Positions 970-33,268 of a stretch of DNA of 40,241 bases are shown piece by piece. Every line of letters starts with the position of its first letter. The first letter of the stretch is position 1. Below the pieces are notes generated by a model. The model saw only the letters and a list, made by a program, of their open reading frames with translations. It was not told the origin of the DNA and made no database searches. The position numbers and the translations under genes were made by a program. This DNA is from Bacteroidales bacterium (lineage in GTDB: Bacteria > Bacteroidota > Bacteroidia > Bacteroidales > Paludibacteraceae), in assembly GCA_012519425.1 (NCBI GenBank), contig JAAYQF010000004.1:1-40241 (forward strand). Direction: 5' to 3'.

Positions 970-1665
970 TTAATCATCAAAACTAACCTGAGGTATTTTA
1001 TACATTAAATTGATGATCTGATCTTTTCTCCTTTGAATATAAGGTGATGGCTTTGCAGGATTGAACCTCCTCGGATTAGGCAAACACACGGCAATGAGAG
1101 ATGCCTGGGTTCTGGATAGCTTGGAGGCATTTTTTCCAAAATATTCTAAAGAAGCTGCTTCTACTCCATAAATACCCCGGCCTGTTTCAATGACATTTAA
1201 ATATACTTCCATGATGCGTTTTTTAGGCCAAAACAACTCTATGAGAACCGTGAAATAAGCTTCAAGCCCTTTTCGAATATATGAACGCTTTGGCCACAGA
1301 AATACATTTTTAGCGGTTTGCTGAGAAATGGTGCTGCCTCCCCGTATTCTTTTCCCTTTTTGATTGTGTTCCCACGCTTTTCTGATGGCTTCAAAAGAAA
1401 AACCTTTGTGCTCCATGAACAAATTATCTTCTGCAGCTACCACAGCCTGGATCATGTGAGGGGATATCTCTTCAATGGAAACCCACTTTTTGCTGTTCTT
1501 AACCGGTTCTCCGTCACGGATGGCTTCTACCGACCGAATCAACATCAATGGTGTAAAATATACGGGAACAAATCGCAGCAAGACAGTCCACGCGATGGTA
1601 ATGAGAAAAAACCAAAGAAAAAGCTTACCAACGAAGCGAATTATCTTTGTAAAAAAGTTTTTCAC
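970..1665 (-). CDS. mtgA: Monofunctional biosynthetic peptidoglycan transglycosylase (GT51)
   Basis: The protein polymerises lipid II into glycan strands at the outer face of the inner membrane. It is 231 residues, a normal length for MtgA, with a hydrophobic N-terminal anchor at about 11-31 followed by the GT51 fold. The catalytic Glu region is AAEDNLFMEHKGF (77-89) and the second conserved block is RGGSTISQQTAKN (108-120). There is no transpeptidase domain, which separates it from class A penicillin-binding proteins. The start is GTG at 1665; the next Met (residue 41) would delete the membrane anchor. It starts 15 nt after rluB and its stop is 6 nt before the first possible lipB start, so the three are probably co-transcribed. 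Confidence 0.93.
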   Translation of the reverse strand: MKNFFTKIIRFVGKLFLWFFLITIAWTVLLRFVPVYFTPLMLIRSVEAIRDGEPVKNSKKWVSIEEISPHMIQAVVAAEDNLFMEHKGFSFEAIRKAWEHNQKGKRIRGGSTISQQTAKNVFLWPKRSYIRKGLEAYFTVLIELFWPKKRIMEVYLNVIETGRGIYGVEAASLEYFGKNASKLSRTQASLIAVCLPNPRRFNPAKPSPYIQRRKDQIINLMYKIPQVSFDD

Positions 1666-1680
1666 GACAGGTTTTCAAGT

Positions 1681-2826
1681 TTACTCGTACGCCCCCATTT
1701 TTAGCATATTTACCTCACGTTCAGTAAGGAAACGATATTTTCCGCGTGGTAAATTTTTCTTGGTCAATCCGGCAAAGAAAACCCGGTCCAAGCGTACTAC
1801 CTTGTATCCCAACTTCTCAAAGATCCGGCGGATCACCCTGTTCTGTCCGGAATGTATTTCAATACCCAAATGTCTGAAATCATCATCTTTGATAAAATCG
1901 AGCGCATCGGCAGCAACTTTTTCATCATCCAACATAACTCCGGATAAAATAGCCTCAAAATCGGGTATTTCCAACGGTTTATCCAAAACTGCATGATAAA
2001 TTTTCTTTTTCTCAAACCTGGGATGTGTCAGGCGTGAAGCTAAATCACCATCATTGGTTAACAACAACACACCGGTTGTATTTCTGTCAAGGCGACCTAC
2101 CGGATAGATCCTTTCACTGCAAGCATTTTTAACAATATCAAGTACAGTGCGCCTGTCTAAATTATCTTCAGCTGTTGTAACAGTATCTTTAGGTTTATTC
2201 AAAAGGATATAAACTTTCTTTTCAATACGTACCTGTTGATTGTGGAACATCACCTTATCAGTAGGCAGTACTTTTACCCCCATTTCTTTTACAACCTCAC
2301 CATTGACCGTAATAACTCCTGCTGCAATAAACTCATCAGCTTCGCGACGAGAACAAATACCGGCATTTGCCAAAAACTTATTCAATCGAATTGGCTTGGT
2401 AGGATCTATCTCGTTCCTCCTATATTCAGCTTGCTTTTTCTTGCTGTATTTTGCATTAGGATTGTAGTCCGCTGTTCTGATCCTCGGACGGCGCTTTTCA
2501 CCTCCACTGTTGTCAAAGCGGGTTTCTACATATTCTGTACTGTTTGGGTTGATTGTTTTTTTTACTGAAAATCTGGCTCGACCGCTTGAAGGTTTTTGGC
2601 CGGATCTCCTTTCTGAATGAGGAGACTTACCTTGATGTCTTTTCTCATAATTAGGTTGTGCATACTTTTCATCATTCCGTCTTGGACGCTCTGAAGAATA
2701 ATTGGAAGTTCCTTGAGAACCTTTAGAGACTGGTTTTAGGTCATTTTTCTCAAACATTTTACCGTCACGGCCGGCATCGGCTCCCGTTCTCCCGGGATGA
2801 CCTTGCCTTTTTTCATTGTCTGTCAT
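1681..2826 (-). CDS. rluB: 23S rRNA pseudouridine synthase, RluB/RsuA family, with long basic N-terminal extension
   Basis: The C-terminal two thirds is a pseudouridine synthase of the RsuA/RluB/E/F group. It has an S4 RNA-binding domain at about 146-192 (IRLNKFLANAGICSRREAD) and the catalytic loop GRLDRNTTG at 244-252, with Asp247 as the expected nucleophile. RluB in E. coli modifies U2605 of 23S rRNA; the exact target here cannot be read from sequence. Residues 1-145 form a Lys/Arg/Ser/Gly/Asn-rich, probably disordered region, as seen in many Bacteroidetes members of the family, which likely binds rRNA. The ATG at 2826 is clear. It is the first gene of a minus-strand group with mtgA and lipB. 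A 7-of-8 match to the -7 box (GATATTTG, minus, 2866-2873) lies about 40 nt upstream. Confidence 0.88.
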   Translation of the reverse strand: MTDNEKRQGHPGRTGADAGRDGKMFEKNDLKPVSKGSQGTSNYSSERPRRNDEKYAQPNYEKRHQGKSPHSERRSGQKPSSGRARFSVKKTINPNSTEYVETRFDNSGGEKRRPRIRTADYNPNAKYSKKKQAEYRRNEIDPTKPIRLNKFLANAGICSRREADEFIAAGVITVNGEVVKEMGVKVLPTDKVMFHNQQVRIEKKVYILLNKPKDTVTTAEDNLDRRTVLDIVKNACSERIYPVGRLDRNTTGVLLLTNDGDLASRLTHPRFEKKKIYHAVLDKPLEIPDFEAILSGVMLDDEKVAADALDFIKDDDFRHLGIEIHSGQNRVIRRIFEKLGYKVVRLDRVFFAGLTKKNLPRGKYRFLTEREVNMLKMGAYE

Positions 2827-3029
2827 TGTGTTAACTAAATTTTAAATAATCTTTTTCCGAGGGTGCAAATATCGGAATTTTTCCTGAGGTATCATAATAT
2901 TGTTGAAATTAAATTAATTCAATGAATGTTATAAATTGTATTTAATGACTTTTCCAAACATTCTATTTGCAGCTATGTTCCTCAACAAAATCTTACAAAA
3001 TCGGATCGGGGATATTCAAACTTTTATTA

Positions 3030-3041
3030 TACCTTTGCAGG
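3030..3041 (+). promoter_or_regulatory. -7 box directly abutting the HU/SPOR gene start
   Basis: TACCTTTG at 3030-3037 is a full match to TAnnTTTG. A start site 4-5 nt downstream falls at about 3041-3042, on the GTG start codon at 3042. No -33 TTG is seen at the expected distance. Confidence 0.5.
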
Positions 3042-3950
3042 GTGGAGTTAATTTTCAAAAACATAGAAAAGTTATTGGCTGCAAACGACCATGCTATTGT
3101 GCCCGGGCTTGGCGGCTTTGTGATCCGGCAGCAACCTACGCAGGTTGAAGGAAATAATATGCTGCCTCCTCACGTCATGATCAGTTTCAACCCATTGATG
3201 AACCAGGAAGACGGACTGTTGGCATTGGAAATTTCCCGAACAAAAGGTATTAGTTACCGCAAAGCAACCGAATTAATCAACAATAAGGTAAGAGAATTCC
3301 GAAATAAATTGCATATTGGTAAAAGTCTTGAATTTGGTCGCATAGGTACATTCACGATGGATGAAAATCGCAATCTGATTTTCAATCCGTCATTTTGCCC
3401 GCCTTTTATTCCTTTCAATTTAGGCTTACAGAAACTACCTTTGCCCAAACAGGAGAAACATCATTCAAAAGAAATCGTCATCAGAATTACACGTGATCAG
3501 GTTATGAAGTACGTTGCTGTTCTGTTGGCTGTTTTCTCCCTGCTTTTACCACCAAAAGTGAATAAAACAACTGATGTGGTTCAAGCCGATTTCAGCAAAT
3601 TGGTACTTGTAAATTTACCGGAAATAACCATCGAACCTGATGCGGACGCAGACATAAGTTTTAACGAACAGGCTCATCCTGACAATCAAAGCCAAATAAA
3701 AGCAAGCCATACTTACAAAATCATAGTAGCTGCTTTTTATACAAAAGAGAAAGCACAGATGGTGTGCAATGATTTGATCAAGAGAAATTATCCGGCTGAG
3801 ATTGTACCCAGAGACAACCTCAACACAATATCCATCCGGTCATTTAATGATTTCAGTACTGCCATTAGTTTCATGGAAGACCTCCGCATGTACAGCGATG
3901 AATTTTCAGATGCCTGGGTTATGAGAACCGCATCATCCTCAAAGAATTAA
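3042..3950 (+). CDS. HU/CCDC81-like DNA-binding-fold protein with membrane segment and C-terminal SPOR domain
   Basis: The N-terminal part (about 1-135) matches the Bacteroidetes HU-CCDC81 fold family: [20 protein letters not shown] near the start and [15 protein letters not shown] around 98-112. A single hydrophobic segment lies at about 156-170 ([14 protein letters not shown]). It is followed by a variable linker and a SPOR-like domain from about 224 ([15 protein letters not shown]). SPOR domains bind denuded glycan strands at division sites, so a link between a cytoplasmic HU-like domain and septal peptidoglycan is plausible; this is inference. The GTG at 3042 is chosen because [12 protein letters not shown] is where the family begins and the -7 box at 3030-3037 lies upstream. 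The frame itself is open further, to 2967. It is divergent from rluB. Confidence 0.8.
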
Positions 3951-10427: not shown

Positions 10428-10460
10428 AAAAAAACTTGCCGACAATCAAACTGTCGGCAA
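10428..10460 (-). terminator. Terminator of the sigma-factor locus
   Basis: Perfect 9-bp stem TTGCCGACA (10436-10444) / TGTCGGCAA (10452-10460) with a 7-nt loop. On the minus strand it is followed by a G and a run of seven T (10428-10434). It lies about 80 nt past the stop of the Spy-like gene. The stretch between it and that gene holds nothing else I can identify. Confidence 0.75.
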
Positions 10461-10538
10461 ATTATCCATTTAAAAACAACTCACAAATCATCCATCTATT
10501 AACTTGTGTGTTCTAGAAATCCCGGGAGAGAGGTGGTT

Positions 10539-11015
10539 TCATTGTCTCCCTTGCTCTCTTTGTCCTCTTGTCTCCCCCCTGGGTTGAGCAGTGCGTTGCA
10601 TCAACTCTCTTTGGTATTCTTTTTCGGCTCTCAATAACTTATTGATGACCTCTGCAGAAACAACCTTTTTCAATTTCAGGTAGTAATTTTTATGAATATT
10701 GGCATTTTCTACCTCAAAATTTACCATAGCTTCGTTGATGGCTTCGAAATTCGTACTTCCCGGAGCATTTGCGCGACGACTATTTCTGTAAACTTCCCTA
10801 TTTTTGGCCAATAAATTCCACAATTCCTCCTCAGTCTCACGGAAAATCGGCTCAATTTTAGCCAGGTCTTCGGCAGATGCATTTATTTTTTCACTGATTA
10901 TAGTCCACTTGCGATTCATCACTTCCTCTTTCGAAAAACGGGAACCTCTTTGTTGTGCAGTAAGGGTACCAAAGAAAAACAGGAGCGTTAAAGTAATTAA
11001 TAATTTTGGTTTCAT
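10539..11015 (-). CDS. Periplasmic Spy/CpxP/CnrX-like protein of a sigma-factor locus
   Basis: The 158-residue protein has a Sec signal peptide (about 1-20, ending FGTLTAQ). The rest is a mainly helical, charged domain, ending in an Arg/Gln/Gly-rich tail. The helical pattern (KINASAEDLAKIEPIF, then KVVSAEVINKLLRAEKEYQ) is what is seen in Spy/CpxP/CnrX-like periplasmic proteins, which sense misfolding or metals; this resemblance is by pattern and only moderate. It is the third gene of a unit with an ECF sigma factor and a one-span membrane protein (10 nt between coding regions) and is followed by a terminator. By analogy with CnrX it could be the external sensor. It lacks cysteines and has only one histidine, which weakens a metal-sensing role. 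Confidence 0.6.
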   Translation of the reverse strand: MKPKLLITLTLLFFFGTLTAQQRGSRFSKEEVMNRKWTIISEKINASAEDLAKIEPIFRETEEELWNLLAKNREVYRNSRRANAPGSTNFEAINEAMVNFEVENANIHKNYYLKLKKVVSAEVINKLLRAEKEYQRELMQRTAQPRGETRGQREQGRQ

Positions 11016-11025
11016 TTTTTCTTAA

Positions 11026-11367
11026 TTATTGATTGTTATCATTTACATCATCATCTGTCATTGAAAATGCATAGTAATCGTACAAAATAGTTTGATCCAA
11101 TTGCGACATGAGATACATTTCATATAATTCAGCGTCACGATTTCTGTTTTGTTGGTGGATAGCGTAGAAAACATTGCCTATCAAGAACACGCCAACAAAC
11201 ATTGCAGCCAGGTACATCCAGGGTTTCATCAACTTTTTAAATGTCAACTGTTCAGCCGCTATTTGAGAATTGATGTCGGATGCAAAATCCTCAAAGTAAC
11301 CCTCCGGTACAGTAAAAGGGTTACTGTTTCCGTACGTTTGCAATATTTTTTGATCTATTTTTTCCAT
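11026..11367 (-). CDS. Small single-span membrane protein, candidate anti-sigma factor
   Basis: The protein is 113 residues. A cytoplasmic-type N-terminal segment of about 48 residues contains NPFTVPEGYFEDF (16-28), a motif common in small proteins beside ECF sigma factors in Bacteroidetes. It is followed by one membrane span (about 49-69) and an acidic external tail rich in Asp, Tyr and Met. There is no zinc-binding HxxxCxxC motif, so it is not a ZAS-type anti-sigma factor. Size and layout resemble CnrY, whose short cytoplasmic part holds the sigma factor. It lies about 100 nt downstream of the sigma gene and 10 nt before the Spy-like gene. The role as anti-sigma factor is inference from context. 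Confidence 0.6.
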   Translation of the reverse strand: MEKIDQKILQTYGNSNPFTVPEGYFEDFASDINSQIAAEQLTFKKLMKPWMYLAAMFVGVFLIGNVFYAIHQQNRNRDAELYEMYLMSQLDQTILYDYYAFSMTDDDVNDNNQ

Positions 11368-11469
11368 TTCTTTGTGATACGTTTGTTTAGACTATCATAA
11401 AACTAAAAGGTTTAATCTGAAAAAGTTAAAGGCAATTGTTCAATAAATAAACACTCCTGAAAATTTCAC

Positions 11470-12021
11470 TCACTCCTCTGTCAATAAGAATTTCTCAATT
11501 TTTTTAACTGCATGATGATAGGAAGCTTTCAAGGCGCCAACTGAAGTATCTAATATTTTCTCCATCTCCTCATATTTCAAATCATCAAAATACTTCATAT
11601 TGAACACCAATCTTTGTTTTTCGGGTAAGCTAAGAATAGCTTTCTGCAACTTCATTTCAGCTTCATCACCAGAGAAATATGAATCAGCTTTCAATTGATC
11701 GGCAAGCAAACCTTCAACATCATCTATTCCTGTGAAATTGCGCATCCTTAGGGCGCTTAAAAATGTCATTGTCTCATTCGTGGCTATTTTGTAAAGCCAT
11801 GTTGACAGTTGTGCATCTCCTCTGAAATTATCAAGCCCTCTCCAAGCTTTCATAAAAGTGTTCTGCAAGACATCATGGGCATCATCATGAGACAAAACCA
11901 TTTTTCGGATATGCCAATACAAGCGCTCCTGATACAAGAGCACTACTTCGGAAAAAGCTTTTGCACGGGTTTTGGGCTGGGCAAGCAATCTCAATAAATC
12001 AGCACTTTCTTTAGCAGCCAT
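11470..12021 (-). CDS. RNA polymerase ECF sigma factor (sigma-70 family)
   Basis: A 183-residue two-domain sigma factor. Region 2 contains DDAHDVLQNTFMKAWRGL and TWLYKIATNETM. Region 4 contains LPEKQRLVFNMKYFDDLKYE and a helix-turn-helix ending SVGALKASYHHAVKKIEKFL. It directs RNA polymerase to a private promoter set. The ATG at 12021 is preferred over TTG at 12057 because the -7 box (TAATTTTG, minus, 12036-12043) lies between them. The gene heads a likely unit with the one-span membrane protein and the Spy-like protein, and follows prmC on the same strand, with about 94 nt between prmC's stop and this start. Confidence 0.92.
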   Translation of the reverse strand: MAAKESADLLRLLAQPKTRAKAFSEVVLLYQERLYWHIRKMVLSHDDAHDVLQNTFMKAWRGLDNFRGDAQLSTWLYKIATNETMTFLSALRMRNFTGIDDVEGLLADQLKADSYFSGDEAEMKLQKAILSLPEKQRLVFNMKYFDDLKYEEMEKILDTSVGALKASYHHAVKKIEKFLLTEE

Positions 12022-12043: not shown

Positions 12044-12114
12044 ATGTTTAGACTCAAAAACAGGAAGAAAGTTTAATAATACTACCGAACAAAAAAGGGA
12101 AAGGGTATGAACAT

Positions 12115-12951
12115 TCATTTCTTCACTGCTTTTACCATTCGCTCGTTACCAAATATATCTTTTTTCAATTGAACCTCTGCATACGACATATCTTCCAACA
12201 ATTGAACGCAAGCTTTTCCGAAGTCGCGATGCACTTCAAAAAACAAATTTCCCCCGGGGAATAAGTTTAATTGAGCAAACTGCGCAATTTTACGATAAAA
12301 GATCAAAGGATCGGAATCCTTGACAAACAAAGCCCTTTCCGGCTCAAAATCTTTAACCCTGCTCATCACGTCTTTACGTTCGGAACACGGAATATAAGGC
12401 GGATTGCTCACGATAACATGATATTTTCGGTCTGATTTTTCAGTTTTCAAAATATCGCATTGGAAAAAACTGATTTTCAGTCCAAGATTCTCTGCATTGT
12501 TTGCTGCCACCCCCAAACTATCTTCGTCAATATCACACGCATATACGTCAGCACCCGGCAAAAAATGTTTTAAAGCAATCGCAATACAACCGCTCCCGGT
12601 ACCGATATCAAGAACGAGACTATCATGCTCAATCTCTTCTAACATCCATTGAACCAACTCCTCGGTTTCAGGCCGCGGGATCAGTACCGCATCATTGACC
12701 ATGAAATTCAATCCGCAAAATTCCGTTTCACCTAATACATATTGTATGGGTAAGCCACTTTTGAGTTTTTCTACATAATTCCGTAAGATTTTCCGTTGTT
12801 CTTCAGAAAATGTTGTATTTTTGTTCACTATAATTTCAGTGAAACTGTAGCCGCTGACTTTAGATATCAACAGTCGTGATACAGATTGCAGCTCTAACGT
12901 TGAATAAGAAGCTGACAAATTGCTGCGGATGAATTGTATGGCTTGTTGCAT
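12115..12951 (-). CDS. prmC: Peptide chain release factor N5-glutamine methyltransferase
   Basis: PrmC methylates the glutamine of the GGQ motif in release factors RF1 and RF2, using S-adenosylmethionine, and so speeds up peptide release. Features: an N-terminal helical domain, the conserved PRPETEEL (92-99), the SAM-binding LDIGTGSGC (114-122) and the substrate-glutamine-binding NPPY (183-186). It is 278 residues from the ATG at 12951. This start is chosen because the frame's upstream extension (to 13014) has no family similarity and the -7 box at 12958-12965 lies directly before 12951. It is divergent from ribD. Confidence 0.93.
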   Translation of the reverse strand: MQQAIQFIRSNLSASYSTLELQSVSRLLISKVSGYSFTEIIVNKNTTFSEEQRKILRNYVEKLKSGLPIQYVLGETEFCGLNFMVNDAVLIPRPETEELVQWMLEEIEHDSLVLDIGTGSGCIAIALKHFLPGADVYACDIDEDSLGVAANNAENLGLKISFFQCDILKTEKSDRKYHVIVSNPPYIPCSERKDVMSRVKDFEPERALFVKDSDPLIFYRKIAQFAQLNLFPGGNLFFEVHRDFGKACVQLLEDMSYAEVQLKKDIFGNERMVKAVKK

Positions 12952-12957
12952 GACCTG

Positions 12958-12965
12958 CAAATTTA
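12958..12965 (-). promoter_or_regulatory. -7 box abutting the prmC start
   Basis: TAAATTTG on the minus strand, a full match to TAnnTTTG. The last base is 7 nt from the A of the ATG (12951), so the transcript would have a leader of 0-3 nt. A TTG at 12989-12991 gives a slightly long 23-nt spacing. Confidence 0.5.
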
Positions 12966-13034
12966 CATGATAATTTTTAGTTTTCACACAAGCACACCAA
13001 AGTCGGTCTGCCAATTCAAGGGTAAATCAACAGG

Positions 13035-30054: not shown

Positions 30055-32871
30055 CTAAAACATAGGTTGCATACCGCGCATACCACCGCCACGCATACCT
30101 CCTCTACCGAATCCCGGGCCATCATCCTGACCGGAGGAAGATCTTCCGCCAAATGACCTGATTCTGTAACTGAAGCTAACAATGAAATAAGAAGTAAGGG
30201 TGTTGTATTTGGTAAATGAAACTGAATTGTCCCCAACAGATTGCCTGATATTTAACTGTTGACGCAGAATATCAAACCACCTGACAGATAAAACTCCATT
30301 GTTTTTAAACAAAGATTTATCAATGGATGCATTCCAAAGTACTTCAGATTGATCAAAGTTCGAATAACCATATCTGTTCGAATAGTTGATATCGCTATTG
30401 ATAGTGATATCAAAAGGTAATCGCAACACGACATTTCCCCGCACAGACCAATCGTAAGTTTCTGTCAACCTGTTGCTTAAATTATTCAAAGAATTGGAAT
30501 ACCGTATATTGCCGCGCACACCCGCTTCAACCACGTCGTGTGTAAAAGTAAGCGACAACTGTTCCTGGGCACTGTAACGACGCGTATAGCTCATATCTCC
30601 CAAAATCAAATTATCCACATCAATATTATCAAGGCTGACCTCTTTAGAAGTGTAACCGTAGCTGTTGTTATAACCCAGATTGGTACTGGTATTAAAATGT
30701 AAACGCTTCTGAATGATGGGCGTGTTAAACATCACATTCCCATTGAACGAAACAGGTATCTTGTCCAAATTGACCGTTTGAGTGTATTGCTTACCTGAAC
30801 TGTCATAAATCCTGTTGGTCACCAACTGGTCTTTAGTAAAATTCCCTGATATCCATGTGCTGAAGGAAGAAAATGTAGAATCATTGAATGTACTATACAT
30901 CAACCTCATATCATGAGTAAAAGAAGGGTTCAAACCAGGATTCCCGACCGTTTCCCGCATCAAATCATCATTATTTTTTACCGGTTGCATCTGACTCACA
31001 CTGGGTTGACGGGTGTTTCCCCTATAATCGAAGCGCATAAACTCTTTCCTTCCGAAATTGTATTGGAAACGACCATTAGGAGCAAAATTAAATACTTCAT
31101 TAGAAACATCACGTATATCTCCATTTCCGTAAACAGTCTCGCTGTATGTTTGTGAAGGTTCGGCTCTCATACCCAAAGTCAAAGAATAATTGGTATCCGT
31201 ATAACGATAATTCATTTCTAAAGTTTCTCTGAAAAACCTATTGGTAAAGTTATTGCTGTAATCTGAAACCGTGTCGGTATATTCTTCAGCATCTTTTCTG
31301 GAAAAAGAAGTAGTATCCGTGGAAGCAAACTGATCCTTATTACTTTTTTGAGAATTTGTACTGAAAGCAAGAACAGCTTCTAACATGTTCTTTCTGTTCC
31401 AAAGAGGTTCAACAAAGGATATACGCGTATCAAAATTAATATTTCCGGACGTGTTGTGTGTGTATTGATTGATGATACTGGTTGAATCGGCCGTCACCTT
31501 ATTCGAAAAATTAAAGCTATGACTGTCGTTCTGAGAAAAGCCTGAATTGAAATTAGCAGTCAGCGTTCTTCCGGGTTTTAAAACAGACCTGCGGCTGGCT
31601 ATTAATCTGGCTCCGGCGGAAAGGCTGTTGTTGTAACCGGCATTTTGAGAACCTCCATAACTGGTTGTATCCTCATCCTGCAAATAGATATAATCACGTG
31701 AACTACCCGAAGAACCTTGATTATAGTTAATACGTGGTTGAATGATAAGTGTAGTCAATGAATCCGGCTTCCATTCTGCTTCTAACCTGAGACTTGTTGC
31801 ATACCTATCATTGAATGAGGTGTTAAACGTAGAATCATTGAAGGTTGAACCTCGCAGATAACTCTCTTTGGTACTGTTCACTTCACTTAAATTATTGGAA
31901 TGATTGAAAGAGCCATCACCTCCAAATTTAAAACTCTCGCTCAATATAGAGTTATTATTAACACCAAAATTCTGGGTTTGAGTAATACCGTTACCTCCTC
32001 CCCAGCCCCCCATACCACGGCGGCTGCGAGAAGTATTGACATTATTGGCTCCGGCTATGACAGATGTTTGGGTATCACCGGACATGAAGTTAACATTGGC
32101 ATTAGCATCATAACGGATCAGATTTTCCGTATCCAAACCAATCCCTCCCAATATATTTCCAAACACACCCTTTCTGCGATTAGGCTTGGTAGTCAAGTTG
32201 ATAATCCTTTCTGTTTCATCATCTTCAAAGCCCGTTAATTGCGCCATCTCAGACTTTTGTTCCAAAACCTGGATTTTATCAATCATCTCAGCAGGCAAGT
32301 TTTTGGTTGCCATCTCAATATCCCCGTCAAAAAATTTTTTTCCATCAACCCGTATCCTATTAATTTCCTGTCCATTTACAGTAATTTTACCATCAGACGT
32401 AATCTCCACACCCGGAAGTCTCTTCATCAGGTCTTCTACCATAGCGTTCTCCGCCACTTTAAAAGCGGTCGCATTATATTCAATAGTATCACCTCTAACC
32501 ACCAACTGAGCGGCCGTTCCACGAACCTCCAACTCTTTCAAAAGTTGCACACTTTCTTTTAACTTGATATTCTTTAAAATAATATCCCTTCGCTGCATCT
32601 CAACATTCTCAGTATGATCAGTGTAACCTACAGAGCTGACGATCAGAATATATTTCCCGGGGCGAACACGTGTAAGGTTAAACCAGCCTTTTGCATTGGT
32701 CTGTGCACCCTGAACCAGGGCAGAGTCGGCAGCATTTAACAGCCTTACCGTAGCCAGTTCCAGGGGCATGCCGCTACTTTCCTCAAAAACAGTCGATTGA
32801 ATAGACCGTTGAGCCAAAAGACCCATGCTGACAGTCAGTAAAAAAAGCGAAAAAAATATTTTTTTATTCAT
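30055..32871 (-). CDS. TonB-dependent-receptor-like outer-membrane beta-barrel protein with N-terminal carboxypeptidase-regulatory-like domain
   Basis: 938 residues. A signal peptide (1-20, ending MGLLAQ), a CarboxypepD_reg-like beta-sandwich (about 24-110), a plug-like domain (about 120-225, with MVEDLMKRLPGVEITSDGK and RIRVDGKKFF), then a large barrel of about 700 residues. It ends in a Gly/Arg/Met-rich tail after the last strand, with GFGRGGMRGG. No SusD partner is next to it, so it is not a standard polysaccharide-utilisation pair. The cargo is unknown. Its upstream region carries a 7-bp tandem repeat that may affect expression. Confidence 0.85.
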   Translation of the reverse strand: MNKKIFFSLFLLTVSMGLLAQRSIQSTVFEESSGMPLELATVRLLNAADSALVQGAQTNAKGWFNLTRVRPGKYILIVSSVGYTDHTENVEMQRRDIILKNIKLKESVQLLKELEVRGTAAQLVVRGDTIEYNATAFKVAENAMVEDLMKRLPGVEITSDGKITVNGQEINRIRVDGKKFFDGDIEMATKNLPAEMIDKIQVLEQKSEMAQLTGFEDDETERIINLTTKPNRRKGVFGNILGGIGLDTENLIRYDANANVNFMSGDTQTSVIAGANNVNTSRSRRGMGGWGGGNGITQTQNFGVNNNSILSESFKFGGDGSFNHSNNLSEVNSTKESYLRGSTFNDSTFNTSFNDRYATSLRLEAEWKPDSLTTLIIQPRINYNQGSSGSSRDYIYLQDEDTTSYGGSQNAGYNNSLSAGARLIASRRSVLKPGRTLTANFNSGFSQNDSHSFNFSNKVTADSTSIINQYTHNTSGNINFDTRISFVEPLWNRKNMLEAVLAFSTNSQKSNKDQFASTDTTSFSRKDAEEYTDTVSDYSNNFTNRFFRETLEMNYRYTDTNYSLTLGMRAEPSQTYSETVYGNGDIRDVSNEVFNFAPNGRFQYNFGRKEFMRFDYRGNTRQPSVSQMQPVKNNDDLMRETVGNPGLNPSFTHDMRLMYSTFNDSTFSSFSTWISGNFTKDQLVTNRIYDSSGKQYTQTVNLDKIPVSFNGNVMFNTPIIQKRLHFNTSTNLGYNNSYGYTSKEVSLDNIDVDNLILGDMSYTRRYSAQEQLSLTFTHDVVEAGVRGNIRYSNSLNNLSNRLTETYDWSVRGNVVLRLPFDITINSDINYSNRYGYSNFDQSEVLWNASIDKSLFKNNGVLSVRWFDILRQQLNIRQSVGDNSVSFTKYNTLTSYFIVSFSYRIRSFGGRSSSGQDDGPGFGRGGMRGGGMRGMQPMF

Positions 32872-32920
32872 GTTTGATTGAAATTGGGAAGTTAGAGAAG
32901 AAATTAAAGAAGTTATAGTA

Positions 32921-32974
32921 GTTAGTAGTTAGTAGTTAGTAGTTAGTAGTTAGTAGTTAGTAGTTAGTAGTTAG
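32921..32974 (-). repeat. Tandem repeat, 7-bp unit, about 7.7 copies
   Basis: Seven complete GTTAGTA units (32921-32969) and a partial one (32970-32974), without a mismatch; TACTAAC on the minus strand. It lies about 50-100 nt upstream of the receptor start at 32871. An approximate extension (GTTATA) starts it at 32912. The exactness points to slippage-prone, recently changing DNA. Confidence 0.85.
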
Positions 32975-33008
32975 GGAAGTTACGGGTTCCGTGTTCCGGA
33001 ATGGCGAG

Positions 33009-33118
33009 TTCAGTTTTTAGTTCATCGTTTTTCGTTCTTAGTTCTTGGTTGTCTTTATTCTTTTGTCTTTGCTCTTTGTTCTTCATCGTTCTTCGTTCAT
33101 CGTTTTTAGTTTCAACAA
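33009..33118. repeat. Degenerate GTTC-word repeats
   Basis: A stretch of alternating GTTC, GTTCTT and CATCGTT words. A 13-bp exact direct repeat GTTCATCGTTTTT lies at 33020-33032 and 33095-33107. It is nearly pure purine with AAC words on the minus strand, and looks like decayed tandem repeats. Confidence 0.55.
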
Positions 33119-33268
33119 CATCCCCTATGACTAAAAAATCGTGCAAAGGTTTAAAATGCAAAACGCCAAATGGTATTTAAACATGTTAATTTAGGGACTT
33201 CTTCATGATTATTAATATTTTTTCATTTACTTTGTATCGTTTTTAGTGCACATCCCAAACACAGTAAT

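Follow-up and report, generated by a model that had tools for sequence, protein, structure and literature searches.

An ECF sigma factor, one-span protein and Spy-like protein locus in a Bacteroidales genome, a probable envelope-stress module of the CirYZ-Spy kind

Gene content of the locus

The window (the whole 40,241-nucleotide stretch of DNA that was analysed) is contig C80 of a 2.39-Mb genome and contains a trio of genes in the order ECF sigma factor, one-span membrane protein and Spy-like protein, all on the minus strand (Table 1). The genome is probably from the order Bacteroidales and from a family other than Bacteroidaceae: the anti-sigma protein of G337, a genome of the same order in a different family, has 100% identity to that of a Bacteroides ihuae record. 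An earlier note, made from the sequence alone, had placed a three-gene locus at 10539-12021, and the reading frames were confirmed at these positions. On the 3' side of the Spy-like gene, a terminator-like hairpin is followed by a tRNA-Cys gene and then by a 4-alpha-glucanotransferase gene. Terminator-like hairpins were called by consensus match only, with two in the scanned region against a mean of 1.3 in shuffled sequences.

Table 1. Genes and sequence features of the window
Feature	Position	Strand	Description and basis
ECF sigma factor gene	11470..12021	minus	183 aa; Pfam Sigma70_r2 + Sigma70_r4_2
One-span protein gene, predicted anti-sigma factor	11026..11367	minus	113 aa; NPFTVPEGYF; family alignment, CirZ found by family profile, model
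Secreted Spy-like helical protein gene	10539..11015	minus	158 aa; alignment, model, profile match to CirYZ-linked Spy
P1, ECF-type promoter-like motif, 5' of sigma gene	12048..12076	minus	TTAAACTTTCTTCCTGTTTTTGAGTCTAA; motif scan
P2, ECF-type promoter-like motif, 5' of anti-sigma gene	11387..11415	minus	TTAAACCTTTTAGTTTTATGATAGTCTAA; motif scan
P3, third copy of promoter-like motif	33126..33154	minus	TTAAACCTTTGCACGATTTTTTAGTCATA; 1 mismatch to fuller motif
Hairpin + T run, intrinsic-terminator-like, 3' of Spy-like gene	10433..10463	minus	consensus match only
Outer-membrane beta-barrel gene, predicted regulon member	30055..32871	minus	PF14905, PF13715 (CarboxypepD_reg)
prmC, preceding sigma gene	12115-13014		upstream gene of the trio

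The start of the sigma factor gene was taken to be the ATG at 12021; a longer frame opens at a TTG at 12057. The Sigma70_r2 and Sigma70_r4_2 domains were both matched at 4e-13, over the Pfam cut-offs. In profile comparisons the closest sigma factor of solved structure is SigW (5e-25), with CnrH at 4e-9.

The middle protein had no Pfam or NCBIfam match. Its translation contains no cysteine and hence no Hx3Cx2C motif, in line with the earlier statement that it lacks a zinc-type anti-sigma domain. The structural model contains helices at residues 2-12, 24-38, 43-89 and 92-110, the third being a long helix over the membrane segment; with a mean pLDDT of 76 and a pTM of 0.32, the helices of this model are usable and their arrangement is not. 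Residues that are invariant in the genus alignment include F18, V20, P21, Y24 and F25 of the motif FxVPxxYF, W50 and A55 in the membrane segment, and Y82, Y85 and Q89 in the periplasmic tail, and three of these (P21, Y24 and F25) are invariant across 63 relatives. The genus consensus of the tail is YExYVxSQVDExxxxDYY, with the core SQ(V/L)D...DYY, and many Bacteroidaceae rows have DDYxLYxYLTD or a similar tail. Five parsed relatives carry the motif in two or three copies ahead of the membrane helix. At L044, L047, L050, L055, L060 and L061 the FxVPEGYF module was seen two to three times in the cytoplasmic part, as though a sigma-docking unit were repeated, and additional degenerate copies can be read at L044. 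Sequence searches of the PDB with the middle and Spy-like proteins returned nothing useful.

The Spy-like protein has no cysteine and one histidine, as the earlier note had counted. Its model (pLDDT 87) begins with a signal peptide-like helix at residues 3-18, which is predicted to be cleaved off, followed by four helices. Across 72 relatives, no alignment column reaches 30% His, Cys or Met except a Met column at residue 2 and a single His column at 32%. The lack of a conserved metal site in this set agrees with the earlier suggestion that the stimulus is probably not the classical metal. The matches at the top of the fold list are 3g6i (Z 9.5) and 3kdw (Z 9.1), both Bacteroides/P. vulgatus proteins that we take to be members of DUF3826; for helical bundles, Z values under about 13 count as weak, and these matches may be due to chance. 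The DUF3826 group and the Spy-like group may share a fold. A weak DUF3826 match (0.0034, below the cut-off) was also seen in the CirYZ-linked Spy of P. vulgatus (L150, 5891-6439).

Linkage of the trio and its relationship to CirYZ-Spy

Relatives were fetched using the middle protein alone, so that the partner genes were unselected, and partners were counted as family-profile matches. A match to the middle protein was found in 64 of the 100 genomes searched (own genome included) and in 44 of the 47 other same-genus genomes. In the first set of 30 loci (window included), the sigma factor gene adjoins in all 30 and the Spy-like gene in 29, and the locus without the latter (L025) stops at a contig end. 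The sigma frame of L033 is short, at 127 aa. The named collection contained at least 367 confirmed relatives. The 80 loci retained from it belong mostly to Bacteroides and Phocaeicola; all 80 have the Spy-like gene and 79 have the sigma factor gene, L099 beginning inside the locus and having no sigma gene. A profile of the middle protein built from the genus matched 42 of 296 phylum genomes (own genome included), which shows reach across the phylum and not universality. Sigma factor genes were found in 28 of the 29 foreign phylum loci and Spy-like genes in 26, and 28 of these loci have an anti-sigma match with a sigma factor beside it.

Strict adjacency, with both partners beside the anti-sigma frame, was found in 75/80 named and 25/28 phylum loci. 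The named loci that lack it (L099, L104, L114, L142 and L145) all have a Spy-like match and all except L099 have a sigma factor somewhere in the locus. L057 and L058 pair a sigma factor gene with an anti-sigma relative of greater length (241- and 245-aa frames) and have no Spy-like match; perhaps these represent a paralogous system without Spy. Anti-sigma frames of similar length were seen in other g59 genomes. Among the loci listed the flanks vary: the trio is preceded by prmC, by a dehydrogenase-like gene or by other genes, and followed by the glucanotransferase gene or by other genes, which indicates that the trio is the unit. The earlier note had named a loss of linkage in relatives as one result that would refute its reading, and the trio stays linked, with partners in 29-30 of 30, 79-80 of 80 and 26-28 of 29 loci.

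In Phocaeicola vulgatus CL10, cirY, cirZ and the co-transcribed spy gene (M0N98_01574-01576) are upregulated 143-, 132- and 155-fold in colitis, and deletion of cirZ raises expression of cirY, spy and two downstream genes (PMC13114119, Gut Microbes, April 2026). A second Spy of this species, M0N98_01970, follows a distinct sigma/anti-sigma pair and is induced 3-fold in colitis (PMC13114119). The trio had been put forward as an under-described system; it is indeed little described, with a sister set reported in 2026 (PMC13114119). The anti-sigma profile matches two loci of P. vulgatus ATCC 8482. One of these (L150) has a downstream LysM/glucosaminidase-like gene and another gene, with functions judged by eye, that fit the description of cirYZ, and the other (L093) was therefore taken to be the second pair, that of Spy M0N98_01970. 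Searched against 162 reading frames, the family profiles detected homology to CirY (3.1e-54), CirZ (3.3e-11) and its Spy (1.7e-16), and all three profiles find both P. vulgatus systems in this set.

The trio resembles CirYZ-Spy in its order of ECF sigma factor, one-span anti-sigma factor and Spy on one strand and in the homology of all three proteins. It differs in having FxVPEGYF where CirZ has PYRTPDGFF, in having a sigma factor of another branch (42.6% identity to CirY), and in its promoter-like motif TTAAAC-N17-(G/A)TC, which is absent from the stretch examined around cirY. Moreover, the peptidoglycan-related genes (carbohydrate-binding, LysM/glucosaminidase) that lie downstream of CirYZ are absent downstream of the window trio. 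The second P. vulgatus operon is alike in its sigma factor (54.7% identity), its FxVPEGYF motif and its P1 and P2 sites, both of which match the motif in full, but has an rnz-like gene upstream where the window has prmC. A sigma factor tree of 33 rows, with moderate support and with L062, CirY and the sigma factor of contig C123 as long branches, grouped the window's genus with Bacteroidaceae rows (87/69), placed same-class rows adjacent to them (92/85), and left CirY outside. Judged by these sequence comparisons, the window trio is a member of the CirYZ-Spy kind on a sister branch, nearer to the second operon than to CirYZ. A single-sequence search with CirZ found relatives in 4 of 149 genomes of the order; CirZ proper is either narrowly distributed or too diverged for such a search.

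Since deletion of cirZ raised cirY and spy, homology to CirZ suggests that the middle protein is an anti-sigma factor, and we predict from the same homology that it binds the sigma factor. Covariation between sigma and anti-sigma factors was not above that of shuffled pairings, the 107 pairs (approximately 66 effective) being too few sequences, and covariation between Spy-like and anti-sigma proteins gave no signal, again with too few sequences.

Promoter-like sites and predicted regulon

The motif TTAAAC-N17-(G/A)TC is common to the regions 5' of the sigma and anti-sigma genes. Of 27 same-genus loci, the window among them, 25 have P1 (TTAAAC-N17-GTC; shuffled rate 0.0008) and 26 have P2 (GTC or ATC), which lies in the gap between the sigma and anti-sigma genes. 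When GTC was strictly required at P2 and the window was left out, P1 was present in 25, P2 in 25 and both in 24 of the 26 loci. Allowing GTC or ATC, all 78 parsed named loci have P2 and 36 have P1, at a shuffled rate of 0.002; two named loci were excluded from this count, L145 (unparsed, with VPDHYF) and L099 (no sigma gene, at a contig start). As P1 is present in fewer than half of the named loci, not every locus has an autoregulated sigma factor as judged by this motif. Across the phylum, a P2-like site is present in 19 of 21 parsed loci (shuffled rate 0.003), a count that excludes the 8 of 29 loci that were unparsed (L043, L051, L056-L059, L064 and L066). In the most distant family (f61), L062 and L065 have only an upstream site, whose spacer is longer by one base.

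The sites are concentrated in the operon, with 115 inside the two operon zones of the named loci versus 12 outside them in 1.7 Mb of strand. Directly before the Spy-like gene, such a site was present in 0 of 29 loci and in 0 of 78 named loci. We did not find the TTAAAC motif in the context of Bacteroides ECF sigma factors in open-licence literature; a non-canonical promoter, PM2, is described in B. thetaiotaomicron (PMC7366714). As far as we searched that literature, the promoter motif, its doubling, the spread outside Bacteroidaceae and the outer-membrane target described below are new.

A fuller motif of 16 fixed or two-way bases was used for the window's genome, with the reversed motif as control. 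P2 matches it with no mismatches and P1 and P3 with one each (P3 is tied second-best), and these are the only sites in the genome with at most one mismatch; the other 20 matches have two mismatches, and the reversed control gave 54. P3 stands approximately 260 bases 5' of the gene for a 938-residue beta-barrel protein with a CarboxypepD_reg domain. The interval between them (32920-33100, minus strand) contains low-complexity repeats such as actaactact. The motif is present 5' of the beta-barrel gene in 19/19 same-genus loci at 55% identity or more (18 of 20 chosen genomes); G020 and G034 have only distant paralogues of this gene. For the 11 listed distant paralogues that were obtained as loci, the motif was present in 6, giving 25/30 over all loci compared with a shuffled rate of 0.002. 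In the genus Bacteroides (g54, 41 genomes), it lies upstream of beta-barrel relatives in 28 of 29 usable loci, taken from the 30 best matches obtained as loci after L281, whose upstream sequence is lacking, was dropped. Three of these Bacteroides relatives have approximately 30% identity to the window protein, and the beta-barrel genes are likely orthologous across families. We predict that the beta-barrel gene is a member of the regulon of the linked sigma factor.

The short form of the motif recovered P1 and P2 in the window's genome, missed P3, and matched a third site, antisense to a SusC-like gene and close to its end, which we set aside as chance. Over 47 same-genus genomes (own genome included), 398 short-form sites were counted versus 395 for the reversed control, and the short form was rarer than the control in three of four other genomes. 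Because these counts are close to those of the control, a large regulon is unsupported and the regulon looks small. In P. vulgatus the motif is matched in full three times, at P1, at P2 and 5' of a lipoprotein-like gene. Full matches were also observed before a membrane-fusion-protein-like gene (L240) and a lipoprotein-like gene (L242), with both functions judged by eye; these genes are possible extra regulon members in Bacteroidaceae.

Proposed circuit and alternative readings

Taken together, the trio is probably an autoregulated envelope-stress module of the CirYZ-Spy kind, for which we propose the following circuit. At rest, the approximately 45 cytoplasmic residues of the middle protein, with two short helices around FxVPEGYF, would hold the sigma factor at the inner membrane, by analogy with CirZ. 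Folding stress in the periplasm or outer membrane would be sensed via the periplasmic tail, and the Spy-like protein may contribute to sensing if it is drawn off by unfolded clients. Stress would lead to release of the sigma factor from the middle protein. The shared and conserved promoter-like sites suggest that the free sigma factor would use P1 to transcribe its own gene, P2 for the anti-sigma and Spy-like genes, and P3 for at least one beta-barrel gene. With the brake and the chaperone produced from their own promoter, P2, the system would then be reset.

In Proteobacteria, sigma-E and Cpx serve the envelope-stress response. A more ambitious reading, in which the trio is a core Bacteroidota response that does sigma-E/Cpx-like work with an anti-sigma class of the phylum made up of one to three FxVPEGYF docking modules, a near-constant Spy co-sensor, two promoters of the same type on either side of the sigma gene and a beta-barrel target, seems doubtful to us; the 42 matches among 296 phylum genomes and the two loci without a Spy-like gene lower its chances. 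Few envelope-stress circuits of the phylum are described in the literature consulted (EcfO-Reo, Das-Dma and CirYZ). With the motif, its doubling and the conserved outer-membrane target, a loosely described trio becomes a circuit that can be tested, also in Bacteroides and Phocaeicola.

Within the proposed module, we give little better than even odds to the Spy-like protein being a co-sensor rather than just an output. Its being an output only, with sensing by the periplasmic tail of the anti-sigma factor (for example, through regulated proteolysis), has in our judgement somewhat under an even chance. The genus alignment shows the tail to be conserved, and many Bacteroidaceae rows have a related form; the Spy-like gene lies behind P2 together with the anti-sigma gene and lacks a site of its own; and L057 and L058 combine a sigma factor with a longer anti-sigma relative and no Spy-like match. 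Deletion of cirZ also raises spy in the sister system (PMC13114119). However, presence of the Spy-like gene in 29/30, 80/80 and 26/29 loci that were fetched independently of it is tight linkage for a gene that simply belongs to the regulon.

The proposed circuit also assigns the TTAAAC-N17-GTC sites to the linked sigma factor. The genome holds other ECF-type factors, and one of these or some other regulator could read the sites instead, but we consider this improbable. With up to two mismatches allowed, the fuller motif has no site on C70, C75, C89, C119 or C123, which are contigs with other sigma factor matches, and the lone site on C24 is approximately 26 kb from the sigma factor match there. 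In P. vulgatus, the stretch examined around cirY is likewise without a site.

The earlier note had likened the trio to CnrYXH of Cupriavidus metallidurans (PMC7406223). The likeness holds for the part list and topology, as both have a sigma factor, a short one-span anti-sigma factor with two cytoplasmic helices and a helical periplasmic protein, and CnrX is among the fold matches of the Spy-like model (probability ~0.8; Z 8.0 over 107 residues at 4.8 A), although this match is weak, with its Z below ~13, and may be due to chance. Membership of CnrYXH is not supported. The sensor-like protein has a signal peptide and no anchor, it has no cysteine and one histidine with no conserved ligand columns in 72 relatives, the sigma factor is nearer to SigW than to CnrH, and no efflux genes adjoin the trio in the window. 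A profile search of PDB chains with the middle protein returned no CnrY, which is short and diverged. That the trio is a CnrYXH-type metal-sensing module is thus very improbable, and metal sensing was rejected because both ligands and anchor are missing. The same genome has a second ECF trio on contig C123 (L002, 996-2502), consisting of a sigma factor, a 114-aa one-span protein and a protein with a membrane anchor at its N terminus that looks CnrX/Spy-like by eye and has no Pfam match over the cut-off. This trio is a closer CnrYXH look-alike than the window trio.

Das-Dma and EcfO-Reo are alike in pairing a Bacteroidota ECF sigma factor with a membrane anti-sigma factor in envelope stress, and different in that their anti-sigma factor has an outer-membrane beta-barrel at its C terminus; a Spy partner is not named in the parts of these sources on which we draw (PMC13088901, PMC9308784). 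Class I anti-sigma domains are found beside only 6% of ECF factors in Bacteroidetes (PMC7406223). That the window trio is itself a Das-Dma (EcfO-Reo) system, with an anti-sigma factor reaching the outer membrane by its own barrel, is barely credible: although such a Bacteroidota ECF pair is present in the same genome on C119 (L005, OMP_b-brl_2 at 5.6e-8), the middle protein has 113 aa and no barrel, the two sigma factors are 25.6% identical, and a profile comparison of the cytoplasmic segments covered only 15 columns at 3.7% probability. Kinship was rejected, as the single weak profile hit (to L005) aligned only from residue 31 and mainly over the membrane helix. The C119 pair (1423-3200) consists of an ECF sigma factor and a Dma-like anti-sigma factor with a C-terminal OMP_b-brl_2 domain, and relatives of its N-terminal part were found in 45 of 100 genomes (own genome included).
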